Positions 2,385 through 63,929 of a DNA stretch of 64,000 bases are shown in pieces. The translations under genes and the position numbers were made by a program. Position 1 is the stretch's first letter. The number at the start of each line of letters is the position of its first letter. Under the pieces are notes generated by a model. That model was not told the DNA's origin, did not search any database, and worked only from the letters and a program-made list of their open reading frames with translations. The DNA comes from Galbibacter pacificus. Lineage in GTDB: Bacteria; Bacteroidota; Bacteroidia; Flavobacteriales; Flavobacteriaceae. Where the stretch lies: positions 434,001 to 498,000 of the forward strand of contig NZ_JAQSVC010000001.1 in NCBI RefSeq assembly GCF_029603165.1. The letters run 5' to 3'.

Positions 2385-4055
2385 ATGTGTCAAGATAATA
2401 TAATACTCAAACGATTTCTTTGTGCAACCATCTTTATTGCTATGATTGTTTCCTGCACAGAAAAGCCAGAAAATATTATTGTAGAACAACAACAAAAAAT
2501 TTATCCGGTATTGAAGAATAAGGAGGTCAATCAATTATTGTTGATAGATGTTATACTGAAGGATACTTTGAAGCCGGCTGTTCTAAAAGGAATGAGCATC
2601 AATTTAAAAGGTACTGATGTAAACGATTTAAGTTCGGCAAGTATTTTTCATATAAAAGAAAAGCATAAAATAGGGGAGGACCCTATGCTGTTTTCAACCT
2701 TAAAAAAGCTTTCAGAAGAAATTACCTTCAAAGGAAATTTCAAACTAAACAAAGAACACAATTACTTTTTACTATCGTGTACACTGAAAGAAAACGTCGA
2801 TATTACCCATAAAGTAATGGCCTATTGTGAGTCTGTTGCCACCATGGATGGATTTGTTGCCGCTAGACCACTTAAAGCCCCAAAAAAATTAAGAATGGGG
2901 GTGGCAGTTAGGAAACATGGGGATGATAATGTACACACCTATCGAATTCCGGGGATGGTTACCACTAATGATGGAATATTGCTAGCCTCTTATGATGTAA
3001 GAAGAGACATGTCAAGAGACTTGCAGGGAGACATAGATATAGGAATTAGCAGAAGCTTGGATGGTGGCAATACATGGGAACCAATGATAATTGCCATGGA
3101 CAAAGGTGAGTATGGAGGCCTGCCAGAAAAGTTTAATGGTATTAGTGACGCCTCTTTACTTGTGGACAAAAAGACGAATACAGTTTACTTGGCCGGACTA
3201 TGGATGCACGGCGTTATAAATAAAGAAGGAAAATGGATTGAAGGCCTTACCGATGAAAATGATGAATGGAACCATCAATGGAAGAACAAAGGATCCCAGC
3301 CTGGATTCGGTATTAAAGAAACTTCTCAATTCCTTATTTCCAAAAGTAACGATAACGGTAAAACATGGGGTCAGCCCATTAACATAACCAAAATGTGTAA
3401 GAAAAAAGGATGGTGGCTCTTTGCTCCTGCACCTGGAAGAGGCATTACAATGCATGACGGAACCTTGGTATTTCCAACACAGGGAAGGGATGAGCAAGGA
3501 GTATCTTTCTCTAACATTACCTATAGTACAGATAATGGCAAAACATGGAAAACCAGTAATCCAGCACATAATAATACTACCGAATGTGCAGTTGTCGAGC
3601 TTTCTCCAGGTGTATTAATGCTAAATATGCGGGATAATAGAAACAGAAAGGATAAAAGCAAAACCAATGGACGTGCCGTCTATATTACAAACGATATGGG
3701 TAAAACATGGAAAGAGCATTCTTCTTCGCATAAAGCGCTCCCAGAACCGGTATGTATGGCTTCATTGTATCAATTTAATATAAACAAGGACAATTGCAAC
3801 AATTCCGTGTTATTGTTTTCTAACCCCAATACCAAAGAAGGCAGGAACAATATCACATTAAAGGCCAGTGTGGATAATGGTAAAACATGGCCAGAAGAAA
3901 AGCAGGTTCTCCTCGATGAAGGTTATGGTAGAGGATATTCTTGCATTACCCATGTAGGCAAAGATCATGTGGGGGTACTTTATGAAAGTAGCCAGGCAGA
4001 TATGACCTTTCAAAAAATACCGCTTAAAGATCTTATGATAAATGATACAAACTAA
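2385..4055 (+). CDS. Exo-alpha-sialidase lipoprotein with N-terminal beta-sandwich domain (GH33)
   Basis: A secreted sialidase that would remove terminal sialic acid from glycans at the cell surface or in the periplasm. The signal peptide ends in a lipobox at Cys24. Residues about 40-160 form an extra N-terminal domain of the type found in Bacteroidota sialidases, and the six-bladed propeller follows. The first arginine of the catalytic triad is in the YRIP motif (Arg187). At least five Asp-boxes are visible: LDGGNTW, NDNGKTW, TDNGKTW, NDMGKTW and VDNGKTW. A late GYSC motif probably carries the nucleophile tyrosine. The 556-residue length fits a two-domain enzyme. It lies 17 bases after the transporter gene and 11 before a second sialidase, so all are probably cotranscribed. 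Confidence 0.92.
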   Translation: MCQDNIILKRFLCATIFIAMIVSCTEKPENIIVEQQQKIYPVLKNKEVNQLLLIDVILKDTLKPAVLKGMSINLKGTDVNDLSSASIFHIKEKHKIGEDPMLFSTLKKLSEEITFKGNFKLNKEHNYFLLSCTLKENVDITHKVMAYCESVATMDGFVAARPLKAPKKLRMGVAVRKHGDDNVHTYRIPGMVTTNDGILLASYDVRRDMSRDLQGDIDIGISRSLDGGNTWEPMIIAMDKGEYGGLPEKFNGISDASLLVDKKTNTVYLAGLWMHGVINKEGKWIEGLTDENDEWNHQWKNKGSQPGFGIKETSQFLISKSNDNGKTWGQPINITKMCKKKGWWLFAPAPGRGITMHDGTLVFPTQGRDEQGVSFSNITYSTDNGKTWKTSNPAHNNTTECAVVELSPGVLMLNMRDNRNRKDKSKTNGRAVYITNDMGKTWKEHSSSHKALPEPVCMASLYQFNINKDNCNNSVLLFSNPNTKEGRNNITLKASVDNGKTWPEEKQVLLDEGYGRGYSCITHVGKDHVGVLYESSQADMTFQKIPLKDLMINDTN

Positions 4056-4066
4056 AAGTTTTAAAA

Positions 4067-5290
4067 ATGGAACAAATTCTTAAACTAAAATCACGAATGT
4101 TTATGATGAAGTGCTCAATATTTATATGCATGGCACTATTATTCTCAAATTGCGTAGAGGATCCAGGCGGAAGTTTAATTGTAGACGAAGACAATAATTC
4201 TTCTGATGGTACCAAGTATCCTGGAAGCGATGGGATAAACTTTATTTATGAAAAAGGACAGGAAGGGTACTCGTGTTATAGAATACCTGCGCTTTTAAAC
4301 ATAGATGATGAAGTGCTGTTGTCTTTTGCTGAGGCAAGAAAAAACAACTGCTCTGATACCGGAGATATTGATCTGGTTGTAAAAAGGTCTACCGATGGAG
4401 GTGCAACTTGGTCTGAAAATATTATGGTATGGAACGATGGTGGCAATACATGTGGGAATCCCGCTCCAGTTTATGACGCAGAAACGGGTGAAATAGTATT
4501 GTTGGCTTCTTGGAATAATGGAAACGATGATATTGGTCCCATTAACAGCGGGACTTCCATCGATACCAGAAGGGTATATGTAATTAGATCAGGCGATCAG
4601 GGGTTGACCTGGAGCGAACCGGAAGAGATTACTGTCGATGTAAAATTAAATAACTGGCGTTGGTATGCCACTGGACCCGGTTCTGGTATCCAAGTAACCA
4701 AAGGAACTTATAAAGGGCGTCTGCTTGTTGGCTGCGATTATATAGACGCTCAACGAAAAGGATATTCTCATGTTATCTATTCAGATGACCATGGGGGATC
4801 ATGGAAAATTGGAGGCATATCTCCAGAACCCCAAACCAATGAATGCGAAATTGCCGAGTTATCCAATGGGTCACTGATGCTAAATATGCGGAATAGCAAC
4901 AGTGGGGATAAACGAAGAAAAGTGGCCATAAGTCAAGATGGCGGGGAAAACTGGGATTATCTTGGGCTCGACAATACTTTAATTACGCCTATTGTACAGG
5001 CAAGCCTACACAGGTATAGTTTTGAGGGAGACCTTATTGACGAAAATATTTTGTTGTTCTCCAATCCTGCTGATTTTAACGATCGGAAAAACATGACAGT
5101 CCGGTTAAGTAACGACGATGGCCAGACCTGGTCAAAGTCTTTAATGCTCCACAATGGTTTCGCAGCCTATTCGGATTTGGCAAATTACAAAGATTACAGA
5201 GCCGCGATCCTTTATGAAACTGGCGAGACCGAAGACGATCGATATGACGGAATATCTTTTGAAACCTTTTCGCTTGACAAATTAAAATAA
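4067..5290 (+). CDS. Second exo-alpha-sialidase lipoprotein (GH33, single domain)
   Basis: A shorter sialidase of 407 residues made of the catalytic propeller only, exported as a lipoprotein (lipobox Cys29). The YRIP motif gives the first triad arginine (Arg72). Asp-boxes TDGGATW, GDQGLTW, DDHGGSW, QDGGENW and NDDGQTW are evenly spread. The motif LMLNMR supplies a probable second arginine and AYSDL near the end the probable nucleophile tyrosine. It follows sialidase 1 by 11 bases. Because the two enzymes differ in domain make-up, they may divide linkage types or substrate sizes between them; that division is inference. Confidence 0.92.
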   Translation: MEQILKLKSRMFMMKCSIFICMALLFSNCVEDPGGSLIVDEDNNSSDGTKYPGSDGINFIYEKGQEGYSCYRIPALLNIDDEVLLSFAEARKNNCSDTGDIDLVVKRSTDGGATWSENIMVWNDGGNTCGNPAPVYDAETGEIVLLASWNNGNDDIGPINSGTSIDTRRVYVIRSGDQGLTWSEPEEITVDVKLNNWRWYATGPGSGIQVTKGTYKGRLLVGCDYIDAQRKGYSHVIYSDDHGGSWKIGGISPEPQTNECEIAELSNGSLMLNMRNSNSGDKRRKVAISQDGGENWDYLGLDNTLITPIVQASLHRYSFEGDLIDENILLFSNPADFNDRKNMTVRLSNDDGQTWSKSLMLHNGFAAYSDLANYKDYRAAILYETGETEDDRYDGISFETFSLDKLK

Positions 5291-49200: not shown

Positions 49201-50184
49201 TTAGTTTTCAAATTTGATATTCCAGTTAATGGCCGCTATTCTTTTTTGAATTAGAATTAAAGTACTTAATAGTGCTGTTTCCTTTGGGAAGGAACCGTAA
49301 ACCAAGTTTTTAAAGTCTGACTCATATACGCTTTTTAAATCGTCCCATACTTTTTCAGGTTTTTCAAATATTAATGAATTGACAGGATGGTTTTTCAACC
49401 ATTCATTGTTATTTTTAAAACTTATAACATCATCCTGAGCGACTTTTAATAGCATAGTATCAAATTCATTTGATTTAAAAAATGTGAGTAGTTCTTTTAC
49501 AGAAAGAAGTTGGTTTAAGTCATAAACGTGTCTAATTTTATTCCTTAAATCTGTAATTGGATCTTCACCATATGAAAATCGAACTAAGCTCATGATTTTT
49601 TCACAAATAGTCCTGCTTGGTTCCAAAACAAGAACATTGAATGGTAGTAGCACTTGTTCTTCAGCCATTTCATTTTGCCCATTATTTATCATCATTTCAC
49701 CTACAAAAGAACAAACACTTTTAGTTGTATAGGGTTCAAAGTAACCAAGCCAAGTAGCTTCCACCACAATGACATCTCTTACCTGACCATAATCTCCTTT
49801 AAATTCTTTATTATATGAGTGTGCTGTTTTACGGTTCATTCCCATTTTATGCGTTAAGCCTGCTATCTTTATTTCTGGTAGGACATCGCTTACTATATTA
49901 CTAATTGTTCTTATTTTGGTTGTAAGTTTATTATTTGACTCTCCCGCTCTTCTCAAAACAATGAGGTCAATATCTTCTGAAAATCTTTCAATTATATTGT
50001 AACATTTAGATAATGCTGTTCCCCCTTTGAAAACGGTATTGCTGCCAATTTTATCATTGAATATTGTAAAGAGAGTGTATGTTACCCAATAATCCTTTTC
50101 TATAAATGTTGCCGGGATTTGCATTTGGTCAGATGTAAACTGTACAGCTTGTCTAAATAGTTTTTTATCCAGGTGAAGTTTCAT
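49201..50184 (-). CDS. AbiEii-family nucleotidyltransferase toxin
   Basis: A 327-residue protein of the AbiEii/MenT-like nucleotidyltransferase family. The active-site motifs are present: KGGTALSKCY (about residues 54-63) and FSEDIDLIV, with further conserved residues in the helical C-terminal half. Members act as toxins in type IV-like toxin-antitoxin systems and give abortive phage infection; related MenT toxins add nucleotides to tRNA acceptor ends. Its ATG overlaps the antitoxin stop by four bases (ATGA), the usual coupling. The pair is visibly more AT-rich than the PUL genes, suggesting horizontal transfer. Confidence 0.9.
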   Translation of the reverse strand: MKLHLDKKLFRQAVQFTSDQMQIPATFIEKDYWVTYTLFTIFNDKIGSNTVFKGGTALSKCYNIIERFSEDIDLIVLRRAGESNNKLTTKIRTISNIVSDVLPEIKIAGLTHKMGMNRKTAHSYNKEFKGDYGQVRDVIVVEATWLGYFEPYTTKSVCSFVGEMMINNGQNEMAEEQVLLPFNVLVLEPSRTICEKIMSLVRFSYGEDPITDLRNKIRHVYDLNQLLSVKELLTFFKSNEFDTMLLKVAQDDVISFKNNNEWLKNHPVNSLIFEKPEKVWDDLKSVYESDFKNLVYGSFPKETALLSTLILIQKRIAAINWNIKFEN

Positions 50185-50924
50185 ATGATATTCCAGTTAG
50201 AAGCTTTGGTTAATGCTCTTTTTGCACCGGGAATCTCATATTTAGTAATCGGGTTTAGAGATTCTTTCAAGCCAATAGTTATAGATTTATTTTGTGTTTC
50301 ATCCAACAATGCACCCAATAAAGCCCTTGTAGATGGTGGGTACTTTAAAGACAGTCGTATTAACTCTTTCTTGTCGTCTAAATTCAATTTTTTGATTATT
50401 TCCAAAAACCTTAAACAAGAAGCAGCTATGGTACTGTCGGGTATTTTTTTTATGTATTTAATGGAATCTAGGATTTGTAAAAGAGGAATGTTCTTTTTGG
50501 TAATTATATTTTTTTGTTTGATAAACGATATTGTATAACGCTCTCTTTTAAATTTAGGACGAATTTCATTTTTTCCTATTTGTATAATGTTACTAACTTG
50601 AGTTGTTAATCCTAATTTATTGTATATGCTATAACCTGTGAGATATCCAACTACCTTGCCATCTTCATTTATTAAATCTTTAACTATTTGTTCTTGATTG
50701 GGTTGAAGGGTGCCGAAAGGGGTTTTCTCAGGCTTGAAGTATTTTCCTTTTGATAGTTTTTCAATTTTACCTGAATTTACCATACGATTTAAAGCTTTGA
50801 TGATTGCTTCTTTCTTACTCATATCAATGTCAAAATACTCGTAGGTGAAAATATACCCGTTTGGTAGTCGGTCTATCTTATTTCTTATATATTCAGTTAC
50901 TTTCAAGTTTTTTAGTTTGTTCAA
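50181..50924 (-). CDS. AbiEi-like antitoxin/transcriptional regulator (DUF6088 type)
   Basis: A 247-residue protein with an N-terminal winged-helix domain (about residues 5-65, with KIEKLSKGKYFKP) and a C-terminal antitoxin domain. It matches the DUF6088 proteins that accompany AbiEii toxins in Bacteroidota. The longest frame starts with TTG at 50924, but a -7 box TATATTTG covers 50929-50922, so a TTG at 50906 giving a nearly leaderless message is more likely. It would neutralise the toxin and repress its own promoter; the inverted repeat at 50939-50964 is the candidate operator. Confidence 0.85.
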   Translation of the reverse strand: MNKLKNLKVTEYIRNKIDRLPNGYIFTYEYFDIDMSKKEAIIKALNRMVNSGKIEKLSKGKYFKPEKTPFGTLQPNQEQIVKDLINEDGKVVGYLTGYSIYNKLGLTTQVSNIIQIGKNEIRPKFKRERYTISFIKQKNIITKKNIPLLQILDSIKYIKKIPDSTIAASCLRFLEIIKKLNLDDKKELIRLSLKYPPSTRALLGALLDETQNKSITIGLKESLNPITKYEIPGAKRALTKASNWNII

Positions 50925-57080: not shown

Positions 57081-58115
57081 CTAGTCCATGAGTCTTTTAA
57101 CTGAATTTCTGATTTTAATAGTAGGCTTTAAAAGGATCTTGGAAGTATTTTGCTCTTCATCATATAATTTGGTGTATAATAATTCCACGGCTACTTTACT
57201 GATATCTTCTACTGGTTGGACAACGCATGACAATGGTGTCGCCAAAAAATCCAGATAGGGGTGATCGTCAAAGGTAATTAAGGATATATTTTCAGGAATG
57301 TCCAATTTAGCCTCTTTAATGGCCTTCATACATCCCATGGCAATGGTATTGCTTAAGGCAAATATGGCGGTAGGCCTGTTTTTTTGTTTGAGCAACAGTT
57401 GAGTGGAAAGATATCCGTTTTGAAATGTGAAATTATCACCGATAATATTAAAATCATTGATTCCCGATTCTTTCATGGCCTCTTTAAAACCTTCAATACG
57501 GAGCTTGTTCGTATTGGACTCTTGCACCCCTTGAATGCATACAATATTATGATGTCCATTTTCAATAAAATATTTAGCGGCCATATAGGCCCCCTTATAA
57601 TTGTCTGTTGAAACAAAAGGAATGTCCAGATCGATGAAATAACGGTCGATGCATACTACCGGTATGCCTTGATTGTGTATCTCGTCAATATGTTCCCATT
57701 GGTTTCCACAGGGGACAATAATCAGTCCTTCTATATTTCTGGAGACAAGCTGTCTCAATTCTTTTTTTTCAATTTCAGGATTTTCATCACTTTCCCCGAT
57801 GATGGTAATGTAACCATGTTTCCTGATTTCTGTATTTATCCTACTGGATATCTCAGCAAAAAAGGGATTATTAAGAGAGGGGACAATTAAGGCTATGGTA
57901 TTGCTTTTTCCACTTTTTAAATTAGCGGCGAATTGGTTCGGCACATAATTCAGTTCCCTGGCAACTTTTCTTATTTTTTCCTGAGATTTTTTCCCTATCC
58001 TATATTCCTTGGCCTTGTTATTTAGGACCCTCGATACAGTTGATATTGATAGACCTGTTTTTTCTGCAATGTCCCTAATATTTATTTTATTGCTATTATT
58101 TTCTTTATTCGGCAT
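57081..58115 (-). CDS. LacI-family transcriptional regulator
   Basis: A 344-residue repressor with the LacI helix-turn-helix (NIRDIAEKTGLSISTVSRVL) and hinge, then the periplasmic-binding-protein-like sensor domain (SNTIALIVPSLNNPFFAEI, FDDHPYLDFL). An ATG at 58136 would add seven residues, but those codons overlap the operator-like AAACGTTTGC at 58123-58134. The ATG at 58115 (MPNKENN) is therefore preferred. Four similar sites in the surrounding control regions suggest that it controls itself, the glycosidase-FGE gene and the SusC/SusD pair. The effector is probably a sugar from the target glycan. Confidence 0.92.
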   Translation of the reverse strand: MPNKENNSNKINIRDIAEKTGLSISTVSRVLNNKAKEYRIGKKSQEKIRKVARELNYVPNQFAANLKSGKSNTIALIVPSLNNPFFAEISSRINTEIRKHGYITIIGESDENPEIEKKELRQLVSRNIEGLIIVPCGNQWEHIDEIHNQGIPVVCIDRYFIDLDIPFVSTDNYKGAYMAAKYFIENGHHNIVCIQGVQESNTNKLRIEGFKEAMKESGINDFNIIGDNFTFQNGYLSTQLLLKQKNRPTAIFALSNTIAMGCMKAIKEAKLDIPENISLITFDDHPYLDFLATPLSCVVQPVEDISKVAVELLYTKLYDEEQNTSKILLKPTIKIRNSVKRLMD

Positions 58116-58122
58116 ATATAGG

Positions 58123-58134
58123 ATAAACGTTTGC
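58123..58134. promoter_or_regulatory. LacI operator O1 at its own gene
   Basis: ATAAACGTTTGC keeps the AAACGTTT core and one perfect half-site. It lies directly upstream of the preferred LacI start and covers the alternative start, indicating autorepression. Confidence 0.6.
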
Positions 58135-58312
58135 ATAAAGATACTTATTTTTCTTACATGATTTAATTTTTCATGTTATAAAATTTTTTTTTCGATAGAT
58201 ATGTTTGTATAAATTTAACATATCACTAATAATATAATAAAATATAAGGCCTATAAGTATCTTTATATCATTTTTAAGAGGTATTTTTTAAATTTTTATC
58301 AAAATAATTTGC

Positions 58313-58351
58313 GCAAACGTTTGCATAATTCAAATTTCTTCTTTAGGTTTG
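58313..58351 (+). promoter_or_regulatory. Promoter of the glycosidase-FGE gene with LacI operator O2
   Basis: GCAAACGTTTGC (58313-58324) is a perfect 12-base LacI-type palindrome. Its right half contains the TTTG (58320-58323) that, with TAGGTTTG at 58344-58351 and a 20-base spacing, forms a Bacteroidota promoter. A repressor bound at O2 would block the -33 element. Confidence 0.75.
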
Positions 58352-58386: not shown

Positions 58387-58398
58387 ACAAACGTTTGT
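58387..58398. promoter_or_regulatory. LacI operator O3
   Basis: ACAAACGTTTGT is a perfect 12-base palindrome, 74 bases after O2 (centre to centre) and about 30 bases after the expected transcription start. It lies 26 bases before the glycosidase start codon. Two sites around one promoter would allow cooperative or looped repression. Confidence 0.7.
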
Positions 58399-58423: not shown

Positions 58424-60628
58424 TTGATGAAAAGAATTTTGTACTTAATCATTCCCATGTTACTTCTTTTAAATAGAAGTGCTGCACAAGCGGTCGGTTA
58501 CACAAGTTTATTTGAAGAGGTTTTTGAGGGGCCTGACCAAAATAAAGATTACCAAGCGTGGCACATGTCGATGGATCAATGGCGGGAGACGACCAGAAGG
58601 AGTATCGATTATGATTCTTCCCAATATAACAACCGCGAACTGGAGTGGATTAACAGCTCATTTATATATGTCCAAATGATGGCGCATGACCGTTACTTTT
58701 ATGACCCATTGTCCAGTACCTATACCGTAGATCGTTATTTGGAGGATTTAGAGCAGAGATATGGTGGTATTGATGCTGTCCTGATCTGGCCTACCTATCC
58801 GAATATAGGCATAGATAACAGGAATCAGTTTGATCTTCTTCATGATATGCCCGGCGGAATAGAGGGGGTAAAGAAAATGATAGGTGACTTTCATTCAAAA
58901 GGGGTAAAAGTATTTTTTCCAATCATGATATGGGATAATGGTACCCGGAAAATCGACCTGCCAATGGCCCTGGCATTGGTAAAGGAAATGAAGCGCCTAG
59001 GCGCAGATGGATTAAATGGAGATACAATGTTCGGGGTTACACGGGAATTCATGGCCGCAGCGGACAGCCTAGACTATCCACTGATTTTTCAACCGGAACT
59101 CAGCATTGGGAGACCCCAAAAATTTACACAAAAAAAAGAGACAGACACCTTGGAAGGGGACGGGGTTTCCAAATTAAAGCCTATCGAATGGAACCTGTCG
59201 AGCTGGGGTTATTTTTTTCCTTATGAATCCATTACCCCGGGGGTAAGTGTTTATAAATGGTTAGAACCCTCCCATCAGGTTTTTGTTACCAACCGGTGGG
59301 CAAGGGATAAAACGGATGATTTACAGCATGCTTTTTTTAACGGCATAGGCTATAATGCCTGGGAAAATATCTGGGGTGTATGGAATCAGATCACGGAAAG
59401 GGATGCAGCGGCCATTAAAAGGATATCGACTATTTATAGATCATTTCCGCAGATATGGAAGAGTAAACAATGGCGGCCCTATGTCCCGACCCTTCAATCA
59501 CGGGTATATGCTTCGGAATTTCCCGGAAATGACCGGACCATTTATACATTAATTAACCGTGACAGTATACCAAGAGAAGGGGTTCAGCTCGAACTCCCCA
59601 ATAAAATAGGGGCCGTATATTACGATATTTGGAATGGAAAGGTATTGCAACCAGAAAAGAAAGGCAACAAGGTACTTTTGAACTTTCCGATTGAAGCACA
59701 TGGATATGGTGCCGTATTAGAAATTTTAAAGGAAAGTGTCGATGGTACTATTGATAGGTTTTTAAAAAAAATGCATGACTTTTCAAATCGTTCTTTAAGT
59801 TCATTCCCTGGGAAGTGGGGGCCGCTTCCTCAAAAAATGGTGGAGATACAGGGCACCAGCCCCCTATTGGACAAACCGGAAGGAATGATCTATGTTCCCG
59901 AAAACAAACATTATGAATTCATTTCAAACGGTGTCATGATCGAGGGGAATGACCTGCCTACTGCCGTAGGCATCCAACACCCATGGGAAAAACATCCCGC
60001 ACGTTCCCAGCAGCATTTGATGAGCATCAAGGCTTTTTATATCGATAAGTACCCGGTCACCAATGAACAATACAAATCATTTATGGATGCAACCGGATAT
60101 GAACCTGAAGATAAGCATAATTTCTTGAAGGATTGGGATAATGGTACATATCCGGAAGGTTGGGCGAATAAGCCCGTGACCTGGGTATCGATAGAAGATG
60201 CAAGGGCATACGCCAAATGGGCCGGTAAAAGGTTACCTCATGAATGGGAATGGCAATATGCGGCACAAGGTGGTAATAAGGACATATTATACCCATGGGG
60301 GCGTATTATGGATACTACCAGGATACCATCAATTGATTCGACGAGGACCCCCCGTGCGGTAACTGACGTGGATATTTTCCCCCAAGGCGCAAGTTCACTC
60401 GGGATAATGGACCTGATAGGCAATGTTTGGCAATGGACGGACGAATATAGGGATGAACATACACGGGCTGCCGTGTTGAAAGGGGGTGGGTTTTATCGGT
60501 CGGCTACTTCTGATTGGTATTTTCCGCGAGCTTATGAACTTAATAAATACGGTAAATATTTGCTGATGGCCCCCAGTATAGACCGTTCCGCCACTATTGG
60601 GTTCAGATGTGTCGGAGATACACCATGA
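58424..60628 (+). CDS. Glycosidase-like TIM-barrel protein fused to a cysteine-less FGE/sulfatase-modifying-factor fold domain
   Basis: A 734-residue exported protein (signal peptide ends near SAAQA). Residues about 20-450 look like a glycoside hydrolase barrel plus a beta-sandwich: GIDAVLIWPTYPN, KVFFPIMIWDNG, GADGLNGDTMFG and a Glu in FQPELSIG are candidate strand ends and acids, but no CAZy family was recognised. Residues about 485-734 are an FGE-sulfatase (SUMF1-type) domain with YIDKYPVTNEQYKSF, AYAKWAGKRLPHEWEWQYAA, NVWQWT and GFRCVG. The copper-binding cysteine pair of true FGEs is absent; only the Cys in FRCVG remains. It is therefore unlikely to make formylglycine and may be a binding or accessory module. 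Confidence 0.8.
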   Translation: MMKRILYLIIPMLLLLNRSAAQAVGYTSLFEEVFEGPDQNKDYQAWHMSMDQWRETTRRSIDYDSSQYNNRELEWINSSFIYVQMMAHDRYFYDPLSSTYTVDRYLEDLEQRYGGIDAVLIWPTYPNIGIDNRNQFDLLHDMPGGIEGVKKMIGDFHSKGVKVFFPIMIWDNGTRKIDLPMALALVKEMKRLGADGLNGDTMFGVTREFMAAADSLDYPLIFQPELSIGRPQKFTQKKETDTLEGDGVSKLKPIEWNLSSWGYFFPYESITPGVSVYKWLEPSHQVFVTNRWARDKTDDLQHAFFNGIGYNAWENIWGVWNQITERDAAAIKRISTIYRSFPQIWKSKQWRPYVPTLQSRVYASEFPGNDRTIYTLINRDSIPREGVQLELPNKIGAVYYDIWNGKVLQPEKKGNKVLLNFPIEAHGYGAVLEILKESVDGTIDRFLKKMHDFSNRSLSSFPGKWGPLPQKMVEIQGTSPLLDKPEGMIYVPENKHYEFISNGVMIEGNDLPTAVGIQHPWEKHPARSQQHLMSIKAFYIDKYPVTNEQYKSFMDATGYEPEDKHNFLKDWDNGTYPEGWANKPVTWVSIEDARAYAKWAGKRLPHEWEWQYAAQGGNKDILYPWGRIMDTTRIPSIDSTRTPRAVTDVDIFPQGASSLGIMDLIGNVWQWTDEYRDEHTRAAVLKGGGFYRSATSDWYFPRAYELNKYGKYLLMAPSIDRSATIGFRCVGDTP

Positions 60629-60673: not shown

Positions 60674-60687
60674 AACAAACGTTTGTT
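60674..60687. promoter_or_regulatory. LacI operator O4 upstream of susC
   Basis: AACAAACGTTTGTT is a perfect 14-base palindrome with the same core as O2 and O3, 117 bases before the SusC start. It puts the transporter genes under the same repressor even if they have their own promoter. Confidence 0.7.
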
Positions 60688-60803: not shown

Positions 60804-63800
60804 ATGAAAAATACTTTTTACGCAAAGGGGTACTATTTGAAGGTTATACCAAAAATTTGGTTCTTATCATGTATACTAATGATGGGGACTTACCATTCGG
60901 CCAATGCACATAGGCCTATTGATACCGTTCGGATGGACCAAAATAAAGACATATACCAACAGTCCGTAACCGGTATCGTTACGGATGAGCAGGGCGTTCC
61001 GTTACCGGGAGCCAATATTGTGGAAAAAGGTACCAGTAATGGGGTAACAGCTGATTTCGATGGAAATTTCTCGATAGATATTTCTAATGGGAATGCAGTT
61101 TTGATTGTTTCCTATATTGGATTTGAAACACAGGAGGTTGCCGTTGATGGACAAGCAAACCTTGAAATACTTCTAAAGGAGAATGCTGCAAAGCTTGATG
61201 AGGTAGTGGTAATCGGTTATGGAACACAAAAGAAGGTCAGCCTAACCAGTGCGGTTGGTACGGTAGACGGGGAAACTTTGGAAAAAAGAACTGTAAAGAA
61301 CGTGCAGCAATCGCTTCAGGGAAATGTATCCGGATTGACAATCCAGGATCAGGGAGGGGCGCCGGGGACCTCTAGAATGACAATGAGGATAAGGGGAGTA
61401 ACGACTTTGAGCAACAATGATCCCTTGGTTATTGTTGACGGGATTGAGCAGGACCTTACCTATCTAAACCCAAATGATATTGAATCCGTATCCGTACTTA
61501 AGGATGCCTCTTCAACGGCTATCTACGGATCAAGAGCCTCTAATGGGGTCGTGCTTGTAACGACAAAACGGGCAAAGGAAGGCAAATTGAATGTTTCATG
61601 GAATTCCTACTATGCCATACAGAAATCCAATAATCAACCTGAACATATGGGCCTTGAAGATTATATGCGGATGCAGAATGTGGCATGGACCAATTCGTCG
61701 GGGAGCCCGATTTATACAGAAGAATACATTCAGGAATATATCCATGCAACGGACCGTCTTAAATACCCGCTCCCCAATACATGGTTTAAGGAAGTTTTGC
61801 ACCCTGCACCTCAAACGAGTAAGGCCTTATCCATATCGGGAGGAACCGAAAATATCAAATCGCTGGTAAGCCTCCGACATTTGGACCAAGAAGGAATTAT
61901 ACCCAATTCGGACTCGAAAATTTCGGAATTACGCATGAACACCGATTTTAAACTAAGCCCTAAATTGAACTTTTCTGCTGATTTCAATTACAGGCACCAA
62001 AGCGCTACAAACCCATTGGATGTAGACCATGTAATCAATGGAATGTTGCAAAACTCCCAATGGACGGTTCCGGTTTATCCTGACGGGACTTATGGAGTCT
62101 CTGCCGATGGTTCCAGCCCCTTGGTAAGGGCAAATCTTGACGGAACGGCCAAGGATTACCAAGATTATTTCTTGGGAAATTTAAAGGGCATATGGGAAAT
62201 TGTGGGAGGCTTGAAGTTTACCTTACAGTACAGTCTTCGTGCCACGTTTGATAAAAGCAAGGATTTTTCAAACAAATATCAGGTACTGGACTATTATGAC
62301 CCAGGTAAAGTATTGGTCAATAAGCCCATCAATAGTTTAACGGAAGGAAGGTCCGATATGCGGGAGACAACGCTGAACGGGCTTCTTAACTATACCAAAA
62401 CCTTTGGGAACCATGATTTTAATGTGCTATTGGGGTATTCGGAAATTGAGAACAAGGCCTCTAATTTATCTGCCTATCGTCAGGAATTTTACAGCAATGA
62501 TATTCAATCGATTTCGCAAGGGGCCAATGATGGGACAAAAGATAATTCGGGTATTGATGTGGAATGGAGTTTACGTTCTTATTTTGGTAGGCTAAACTAT
62601 TCTTATATGAATAAGTATCTTTTTGAAGCCAATGTCCGGTATGATGGATCTTCACGTTTTGCAAAGGGCAATCAATACAGTACCTTTCCATCCTTTTCTA
62701 CGGGTTGGAGACTATCTGAGGAGAATTTTTGGAGCGGTTTAAAAAATACGTTCAATGAATTTAAACTAAGGGGTTCTTATGGTAAATCCGGAAACCAGGC
62801 GGTCGATCCCTATAGTTTCCTGGCGACATATAATTTACAGAGCTATTCATTTGGAGAGAACCCTGCCGTTGGCTATAGGCAAACAGATTTGGCCAATAGG
62901 GATATTTCTTGGGAAACAACTACACAGACCGATGTGGGACTGGATTTGCAAATGCTGACAAATAGGATTACGCTATCAGTTGACTACTATCACAAAAAGA
63001 CAGAAGATATATTGTTGGAAGTTCCGGTACCGGCAACATTGGGACTGTATGCCTCGGCACAAAATATAGGCAGGGTGGACAATAAGGGATGGGAATTTAC
63101 CCTGGGCCTACGAAACAGTTTTAATGAATTTAATATAAACAGCAATTTTAATTTTTCAATCAATAACAACGAGGTAATTGATTTGGGGGGGACCGGCCCC
63201 TATATATATGGACTGTATGAAGGAAACGCATATCTAGGGGGTGCTAATGAATCCAGAGTGACTACCAGGGTAGGCCTTCCGATCCATTCATGGTGGGGGT
63301 ATAAAACCGATGGATATTTTCAAACCCAGGAAGAAGTCGCCAATTATCCCACTATTATAAGTGATGCCCAACCGGGGGATGTTAAGTTCCTTGACGAGAA
63401 CGGAGATGGAAAGATCACACCGGACGATATGGTTAATTTGGGACAGAGTTTTCCAAAATACAATTTCGGTGCCAATTTTGATTTCTCATATAAGGCATTC
63501 GCTTTAAATATCCAGTTACAGGGAGCAGCGGGCTATAAAGCCCGTGTTGGGGGAGCTTTGGCTGAAATGGGGATATGGGGAGGATTTACCCATAAGGTAA
63601 CCGGGGATTACTGGACCCCCGACAATCCGGATGCGCGATTCCCCAGACCGCTAAAATTTGACCTTAGGAATATAATAATGGCAGATAGGGACCTGCTGGA
63701 CGGAGCATACCTGCGGGTGAAAAACGTACAGTTGTCCTATAAATTGCCTGTAGCCTTCACAAGTGTATTGGGCATAAGGGATGCCAGTTTATACGTCTCG

Positions 63801-63929
63801 ACAACCAACCTGTTGACCTTCGCCGCTTTAAATGATTTTGATGTGGATCCTGAAGAAGTTATAGGTGGACGTGCCGAACGTTATCCACAGACTTCATTGA
63901 CTACCTTGGGTGTGAACATTAATTTTTAG
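60804..63929 (+). CDS. SusC/RagA-family TonB-dependent receptor
   Basis: A 1041-residue importer. The signal peptide ends near SANAH, then come a short linker, CarboxypepD_reg-like domain (GIVTDEQGVPLPGANI), TonB-box region (DEVVVIGYGTQKKVS), plug (SVSVLKDASSTAIYGSRASNG) and barrel ending in TTLGVNINF. It resembles the STN-type SusC at 26100-29456 over nearly the whole plug and barrel but has no STN domain. Control here is by the LacI-type sites instead. A SusD start follows 33 bases downstream. Confidence 0.95.
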   Translation: MKNTFYAKGYYLKVIPKIWFLSCILMMGTYHSANAHRPIDTVRMDQNKDIYQQSVTGIVTDEQGVPLPGANIVEKGTSNGVTADFDGNFSIDISNGNAVLIVSYIGFETQEVAVDGQANLEILLKENAAKLDEVVVIGYGTQKKVSLTSAVGTVDGETLEKRTVKNVQQSLQGNVSGLTIQDQGGAPGTSRMTMRIRGVTTLSNNDPLVIVDGIEQDLTYLNPNDIESVSVLKDASSTAIYGSRASNGVVLVTTKRAKEGKLNVSWNSYYAIQKSNNQPEHMGLEDYMRMQNVAWTNSSGSPIYTEEYIQEYIHATDRLKYPLPNTWFKEVLHPAPQTSKALSISGGTENIKSLVSLRHLDQEGIIPNSDSKISELRMNTDFKLSPKLNFSADFNYRHQSATNPLDVDHVINGMLQNSQWTVPVYPDGTYGVSADGSSPLVRANLDGTAKDYQDYFLGNLKGIWEIVGGLKFTLQYSLRATFDKSKDFSNKYQVLDYYDPGKVLVNKPINSLTEGRSDMRETTLNGLLNYTKTFGNHDFNVLLGYSEIENKASNLSAYRQEFYSNDIQSISQGANDGTKDNSGIDVEWSLRSYFGRLNYSYMNKYLFEANVRYDGSSRFAKGNQYSTFPSFSTGWRLSEENFWSGLKNTFNEFKLRGSYGKSGNQAVDPYSFLATYNLQSYSFGENPAVGYRQTDLANRDISWETTTQTDVGLDLQMLTNRITLSVDYYHKKTEDILLEVPVPATLGLYASAQNIGRVDNKGWEFTLGLRNSFNEFNINSNFNFSINNNEVIDLGGTGPYIYGLYEGNAYLGGANESRVTTRVGLPIHSWWGYKTDGYFQTQEEVANYPTIISDAQPGDVKFLDENGDGKITPDDMVNLGQSFPKYNFGANFDFSYKAFALNIQLQGAAGYKARVGGALAEMGIWGGFTHKVTGDYWTPDNPDARFPRPLKFDLRNIIMADRDLLDGAYLRVKNVQLSYKLPVAFTSVLGIRDASLYVSTTNLLTFAALNDFDVDPEEVIGGRAERYPQTSLTTLGVNINF

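Follow-up and report, generated by a model that had tools for sequence, protein, structure and literature searches.

The analysed stretch of DNA, referred to here as the window, covers 64,000 nucleotides of the Galbibacter pacificus genome (contig NZ_JAQSVC010000001.1, positions 434,001 to 498,000), and coordinates given without a contig handle are positions within it. At 58424-60628 on the forward strand lies a complete open reading frame, listed from a TTG codon, whose product of about 733 amino acids is predicted to be secreted and joins an N-terminal barrel to a C-terminal domain with the fold of the formylglycine-generating enzyme (FGE). The ATG at 58427, immediately after the listed TTG, is the likelier true start on sequence grounds, because it is followed by a predicted signal peptide (residues 2-22; 58427..58489, forward strand), read by eye as MKRILYLIIPMLLLLNRSAAQA.

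The gene belongs to an operon with the order LacI-family regulator (divergent), barrel-FGE protein, SusC, SusD, ADP-ribosylglycohydrolase, ribokinase, and sugar permease. The regulator (57081..58136, reverse strand) has an RbsR-type model as its best NCBIfam match, at 265 bits and thus below the cut-off of 382, and the SusC/RagA TonB-dependent receptor (60804..63929, forward strand) matches TIGR04056 with 929 bits. The genes for SusD, the ADP-ribosylglycohydrolase, the ribokinase, and a sugar/ureide permease-like protein continue the operon past the window (C11:497962-503297). A pattern search placed LacI-type operator-like palindromes upstream of the barrel-FGE gene (GCAAACGTTTGC, 58313..58324, and ACAAACGTTTGT, 58387..58398) and before susC (ACAAACGTTTGT, 60675..60686). 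The pattern RCAAACGTTTGY occurs at seven sites in the 4.04 Mb genome, against none for the reversed control pattern, and three of these seven CAAACGTTTG-type sites fall in this locus. The ribokinase scores 337 bits against the TIGR02152 cut-off of 299.65 and is the only one in the genome above that cut-off; the ADP-ribosylglycohydrolase, which carries a lipoprotein-like signal, is likewise the only one in the genome. 

The ribose locus Rus of Bacteroides thetaiotaomicron, with a SusC/SusD pair, a ribokinase and ribose-permease type genes, shares these components with the Galbibacter operon, whereas the latter has in addition the barrel-FGE protein and a divergently oriented LacI regulator, and no nucleoside hydrolase was seen among its scanned genes. 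All the elements of a Rus-type locus, namely a SusC/SusD pair, a ribokinase, a ribose-type permease (its substrate assigned from its family) and a dedicated regulator, are present in the operon. Rus itself (BT2803-2809) is presented as a ribose polysaccharide-utilisation locus in PMC12596196. Because the barrel-FGE gene sits in such a ribose-scavenging gene set, release of ribose from larger molecules is its probable function. The marine-glycan substrate put forward earlier finds no supporting context at the locus, where the operon points to ribose, and a role as a marine-polysaccharide enzyme was rejected for that reason.

Elsewhere in the region, further polysaccharide-utilisation genes lie downstream at C11:515000-534000, among them genes for an FAD-dependent oxidoreductase and, at 3118-4719 of that segment, a sulfatase. 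On the reverse strand of the window, two overlapping reading frames at 49201-50924 resemble an AbiE-type pair by eye, with a nucleotidyltransferase-like member at 49201-50184 and an AbiEi-like partner at 50181-50924.

Structure prediction and structure search, which the original prediction had proposed for both halves of the protein, led to a GH13-type barrel for the N-terminal half and to the FGE fold of SUMF2 for the C-terminal half. The N-terminal half matches nothing in Pfam or NCBIfam, even at E<=1, and nothing in PHROGs, and a profile built from 39 homologues found nothing among PDB sequences (best E=0.55). AlphaFold2 modelled the full-length protein with a pLDDT of 86.6 and a pTM of 0.87 when given the homologue alignment, and residues 38-452 alone with values of 88.9 and 0.89. 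In these models the N-terminal half forms a (beta/alpha)8 barrel (residues 38-346; 58535..59461, forward strand), delimited with the aid of Foldseek searches against the PDB and conservation, and, from the secondary structure of the models, a C-terminal beta-domain of glycosidase type (residues 351-435; 59474..59728, forward strand). The 50 best listed PDB matches of the barrel model, classed by their descriptions, are GH13-type structures, with K. grimontii Apg counted among them by assumption; their E-values range from 6e-12 to 5e-10 and their TM-scores, relative to the query, from 0.46 to 0.61, at about 12% identity, and neopullulanase, branching enzyme, GlgE, CGTase and trehalose synthase are among the enzymes named.

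In the alpha-amylase clan, the nucleophile is an Asp at the end of strand 4 and the acid/base a Glu at the end of strand 5. D200 (nt 59021-59023) closes strand 4 of the modelled barrel and E225 (nt 59096-59098) closes strand 5, and every relative in the alignment, those of the 930-aa and split families described below among them, retains W170-D171, D200-T201 and E225. The arrangement of clan GH-H, in which strand 4 of the barrel bears the Asp and strand 5 the Glu, is therefore present in the model, and D200 and E225 are the candidate nucleophile and acid/base, respectively. The protein resembles GH13-type enzymes such as neopullulanase (1j0h), branching enzyme (8zqa) and GlgE (5lgw) in its barrel, its C-terminal beta-domain and these two acidic residues, but it differs from them in its identity of about 12%, in a profile-profile alignment with GH13 proteins from relatives that reached an insignificant probability of 6.6% (hhalign), in the lack of a match to the Pfam alpha-amylase family PF00128, and in the absence of the RxD motif of GH13, which is replaced by NGD or xLD, with N198 where the GH13 arginine precedes the nucleophile. 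By analogy with these enzymes, the barrel would be expected to act on alpha linkages with retention of configuration. The earlier description of this half as a glycosidase-like region outside the assigned families accords with the modelled glycoside hydrolase fold and the empty Pfam and NCBIfam searches.

The FGE-fold domain extends over residues 484-733 (59873..60622, forward strand), as delimited by Pfam, the homologue alignment, Foldseek and a PDB sequence match. FGE-sulfatase (PF03781) is the only Pfam domain in the whole protein and covers residues 528-730 with 132 bits against a cut-off of 23.3 (E=3e-38), which bears out the placement of this half in the SUMF1/FGE family. The original prediction also stated that the protein has a single cysteine, in FRCVG, and none at the copper-binding positions, and both points hold in the alignment of 39 homologues: the sole cysteine, C729 in GFRCVG, is invariant, and R692 and D697, within the stretch GGGFYRSATSD, occupy the places of the copper cysteines of true FGEs, at positions that vary and are never Cys. 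Also invariant are G687 and the residues of an SxWYFP motif (S696-x-W698-Y-F-P701, with Y699 and F700), together with the polar residues D673, E674, D677, H679, K711, D720 and R721. Human SUMF2 (1y4j) is the best match of the domain both among PDB sequences (E=2e-27) and in Foldseek (E=1.9e-13). SUMF2 is an inactive paralogue of the formylglycine-generating enzyme and does not have the catalytic pair. Copper-site cysteines are missing from SUMF2 and from the barrel-FGE protein alike, whereas SUMF2 stands alone, without the invariant SxWYFP motif and without fusion to a barrel. With the copper site lost, it is unlikely that the domain produces formylglycine.

Other FGE-like genes were observed in the same genome. 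The strongest FGE match, at C17:147920-148846, has the canonical-looking motif GGSFLCSASYC with its cysteines five apart, and since the C-x4-C copper motif is kept there, a canonical FGE is probably encoded beside the pseudo-FGE. Additionally, an FGE-sulfatase match at C11:247307 adjoins a reading frame resembling an EgtD methyltransferase, which suggests an ergothioneine pathway.

Scanning genome contigs brought up 366 related places, of which the best 80 are nearly full length and come, by record names that may be wrong for some metagenome-assembled genomes (MAGs), from Bacteroidota, Acidobacteriota, Verrucomicrobiota, Pseudomonadota and others. The fusion is a stable family conserved across several phyla, and so it is neither an isolated fusion event nor a gene in decay; a chance reading frame or recent fusion artefact was discarded as well, the same architecture being found at at least 80 loci. 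In 395 Bacteroidota genomes, a profile search revealed two further families. One, of about 930 aa, has an extra N-terminal domain and keeps the order from barrel to FGE. The other, of about 766 aa and found in one genus, is a barrel protein without an FGE domain, and in the three genomes inspected (3/3) the barrel gene is directly preceded by the gene for a separate secreted FGE-fold protein, with SxWY where the cysteines would be. The gene order of these split relatives is ribokinase, RhaT-like transporter, separate FGE-fold protein and barrel protein; because it is opposite to that of the fusion, the split genes are not simply a broken fusion, and the persistence of barrel and FGE part as separate adjacent genes speaks for a joint function of the two.

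These observations bear on the role of the FGE-fold domain. The domain may simply bind carbohydrate or mediate docking, without a share in catalysis, which is a real possibility, somewhat short of an even chance, given the missing copper cysteines and a closest solved fold, that of SUMF2, without the catalytic pair. However, conservation is higher in the domain than in the barrel (column identity averages 64% vs 55%), and no swap for other modules is seen among the aligned sequences of the fusion family. Its high conservation and the constant company of the barrel tip the balance towards an integral role and away from that of a loosely tethered binding module. Of the earlier proposal that the FGE fold was recruited as a module, recruitment without the copper site stands, whereas a loosely attached glycan-binding module fits poorly, because of the difference in conservation, the correlation between barrel and FGE distances (r=0.83) and the persistence of the parts as split neighbours.

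The link to ribose extends to part of the family. Among the best 80 of the 366 related places, a ribokinase-like gene lies near 30, in several phyla, and at 12 it is on the same strand and no more than 1.5 kb away; kinase and permease occur together near 20, again in several phyla. By comparison, the entire G. pacificus genome contains two matches of more than 120 bits to the ribokinase model. For every kinase tested, the best equivalog is TIGR02152 or PRK11142, both ribokinase models, and three exceed the TIGR02152 cut-off. By annotation or Pfam, a Sphingopyxis locus combines a TonB receptor, a ribokinase, the fusion and a GH127 gene, and a Xanthomonadaceae MAG carries another kinase-linked fusion; a Neomarinimicrobiota MAG holds a kinase, an ABC transporter, an ADP-ribosylglycohydrolase and the fusion. 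No ribokinase-like gene was found at 22 of the 42 homologue loci with full flanks, where high-G+C loci were scanned by stop-to-stop reading frames and some genes may be missed, nor at nine loci of the 930-aa family; because of these loci, ribose is perhaps not the product throughout the family.

The barrel could instead be a glycosidase for another sugar, either an alpha-glucoside or a furanoside such as an arabinofuranoside, with the PfkB kinase and the permease serving that sugar. Its fold neighbours are alpha-glucan enzymes, and in Pseudomonadota the neighbours of the fusion include GH127 and transaldolase genes, which would also fit another furanose, the GH127 genes adjoining some homologues being beta-L-arabinofuranosidase-like. 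The specificity of PfkB kinases varies, with some neighbours scoring 260-278 bits, under the ribokinase cut-off; the split family has the RhaT-like transporter; and GH28 and GH36 genes surround a Spirosoma relative of about 31% identity. This alternative is nevertheless considered doubtful in view of the ribokinase models that lead for every kinase tested, three of them above the cut-off, and of the similarity of the operon in G. pacificus itself to the ribose locus Rus.

In public records, two plasmid homologues carry the name 'SUMF1/EgtB/PvdO family nonheme iron enzyme'. The iron ligands of EgtB are partly located in a separate DinB-type domain. An enzymatic role of the FGE-fold domain itself, as a nonheme iron or other oxidase, agrees with this annotation and with the many invariant polar residues listed above, but it is very improbable, as the copper cysteines are missing and the barrel-FGE protein has no DinB-type domain. 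The NCBIfam equivalogs for EgtB, SenA and PvdO score 69, 69 and 22 bits, below their cut-offs of 360, 420 and 500. The name 'nonheme iron enzyme' is misleading for these homologues and unsupported, because the metal-binding cysteines are absent.

The best explanation, to which we assign a probability of roughly 0.55, is a secreted, probably retaining, ribose-releasing glycosidase of an undescribed family with an integral, non-oxidase FGE-fold domain. D200 would act as the nucleophile and E225 as the acid/base on a ribose-containing glycoside or ribosyl conjugate, and the permease would then take up the freed ribose, to which the ribokinase would add a phosphate. More tentatively, the FGE-fold domain may bind substrate or complete the active-site cleft. 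One may speculate that alpha-ribosyl bonds, for instance in ADP-ribosyl compounds, are the target, which would suit the neighbouring ADP-ribosylglycohydrolase. A bolder version, in which the protein founds a glycoside hydrolase family of its own that is devoted to ribosyl linkages, and in which the pseudo-FGE, once an oxidase fold, is indispensable to catalysis and builds the active site jointly with the barrel, is rather unlikely.

No published description of a barrel-FGE fusion was found in the open-licence literature. If the preferred explanation of a ribose-releasing glycosidase is right, it would define an uncharacterised and widespread glycosidase family, whose homologues called 'nonheme iron enzyme' bear the wrong name, and it would provide bacteria with a route to free ribose besides nucleoside hydrolases; it would also be a case of an FGE fold put to new use as a functional component of a glycosidase.
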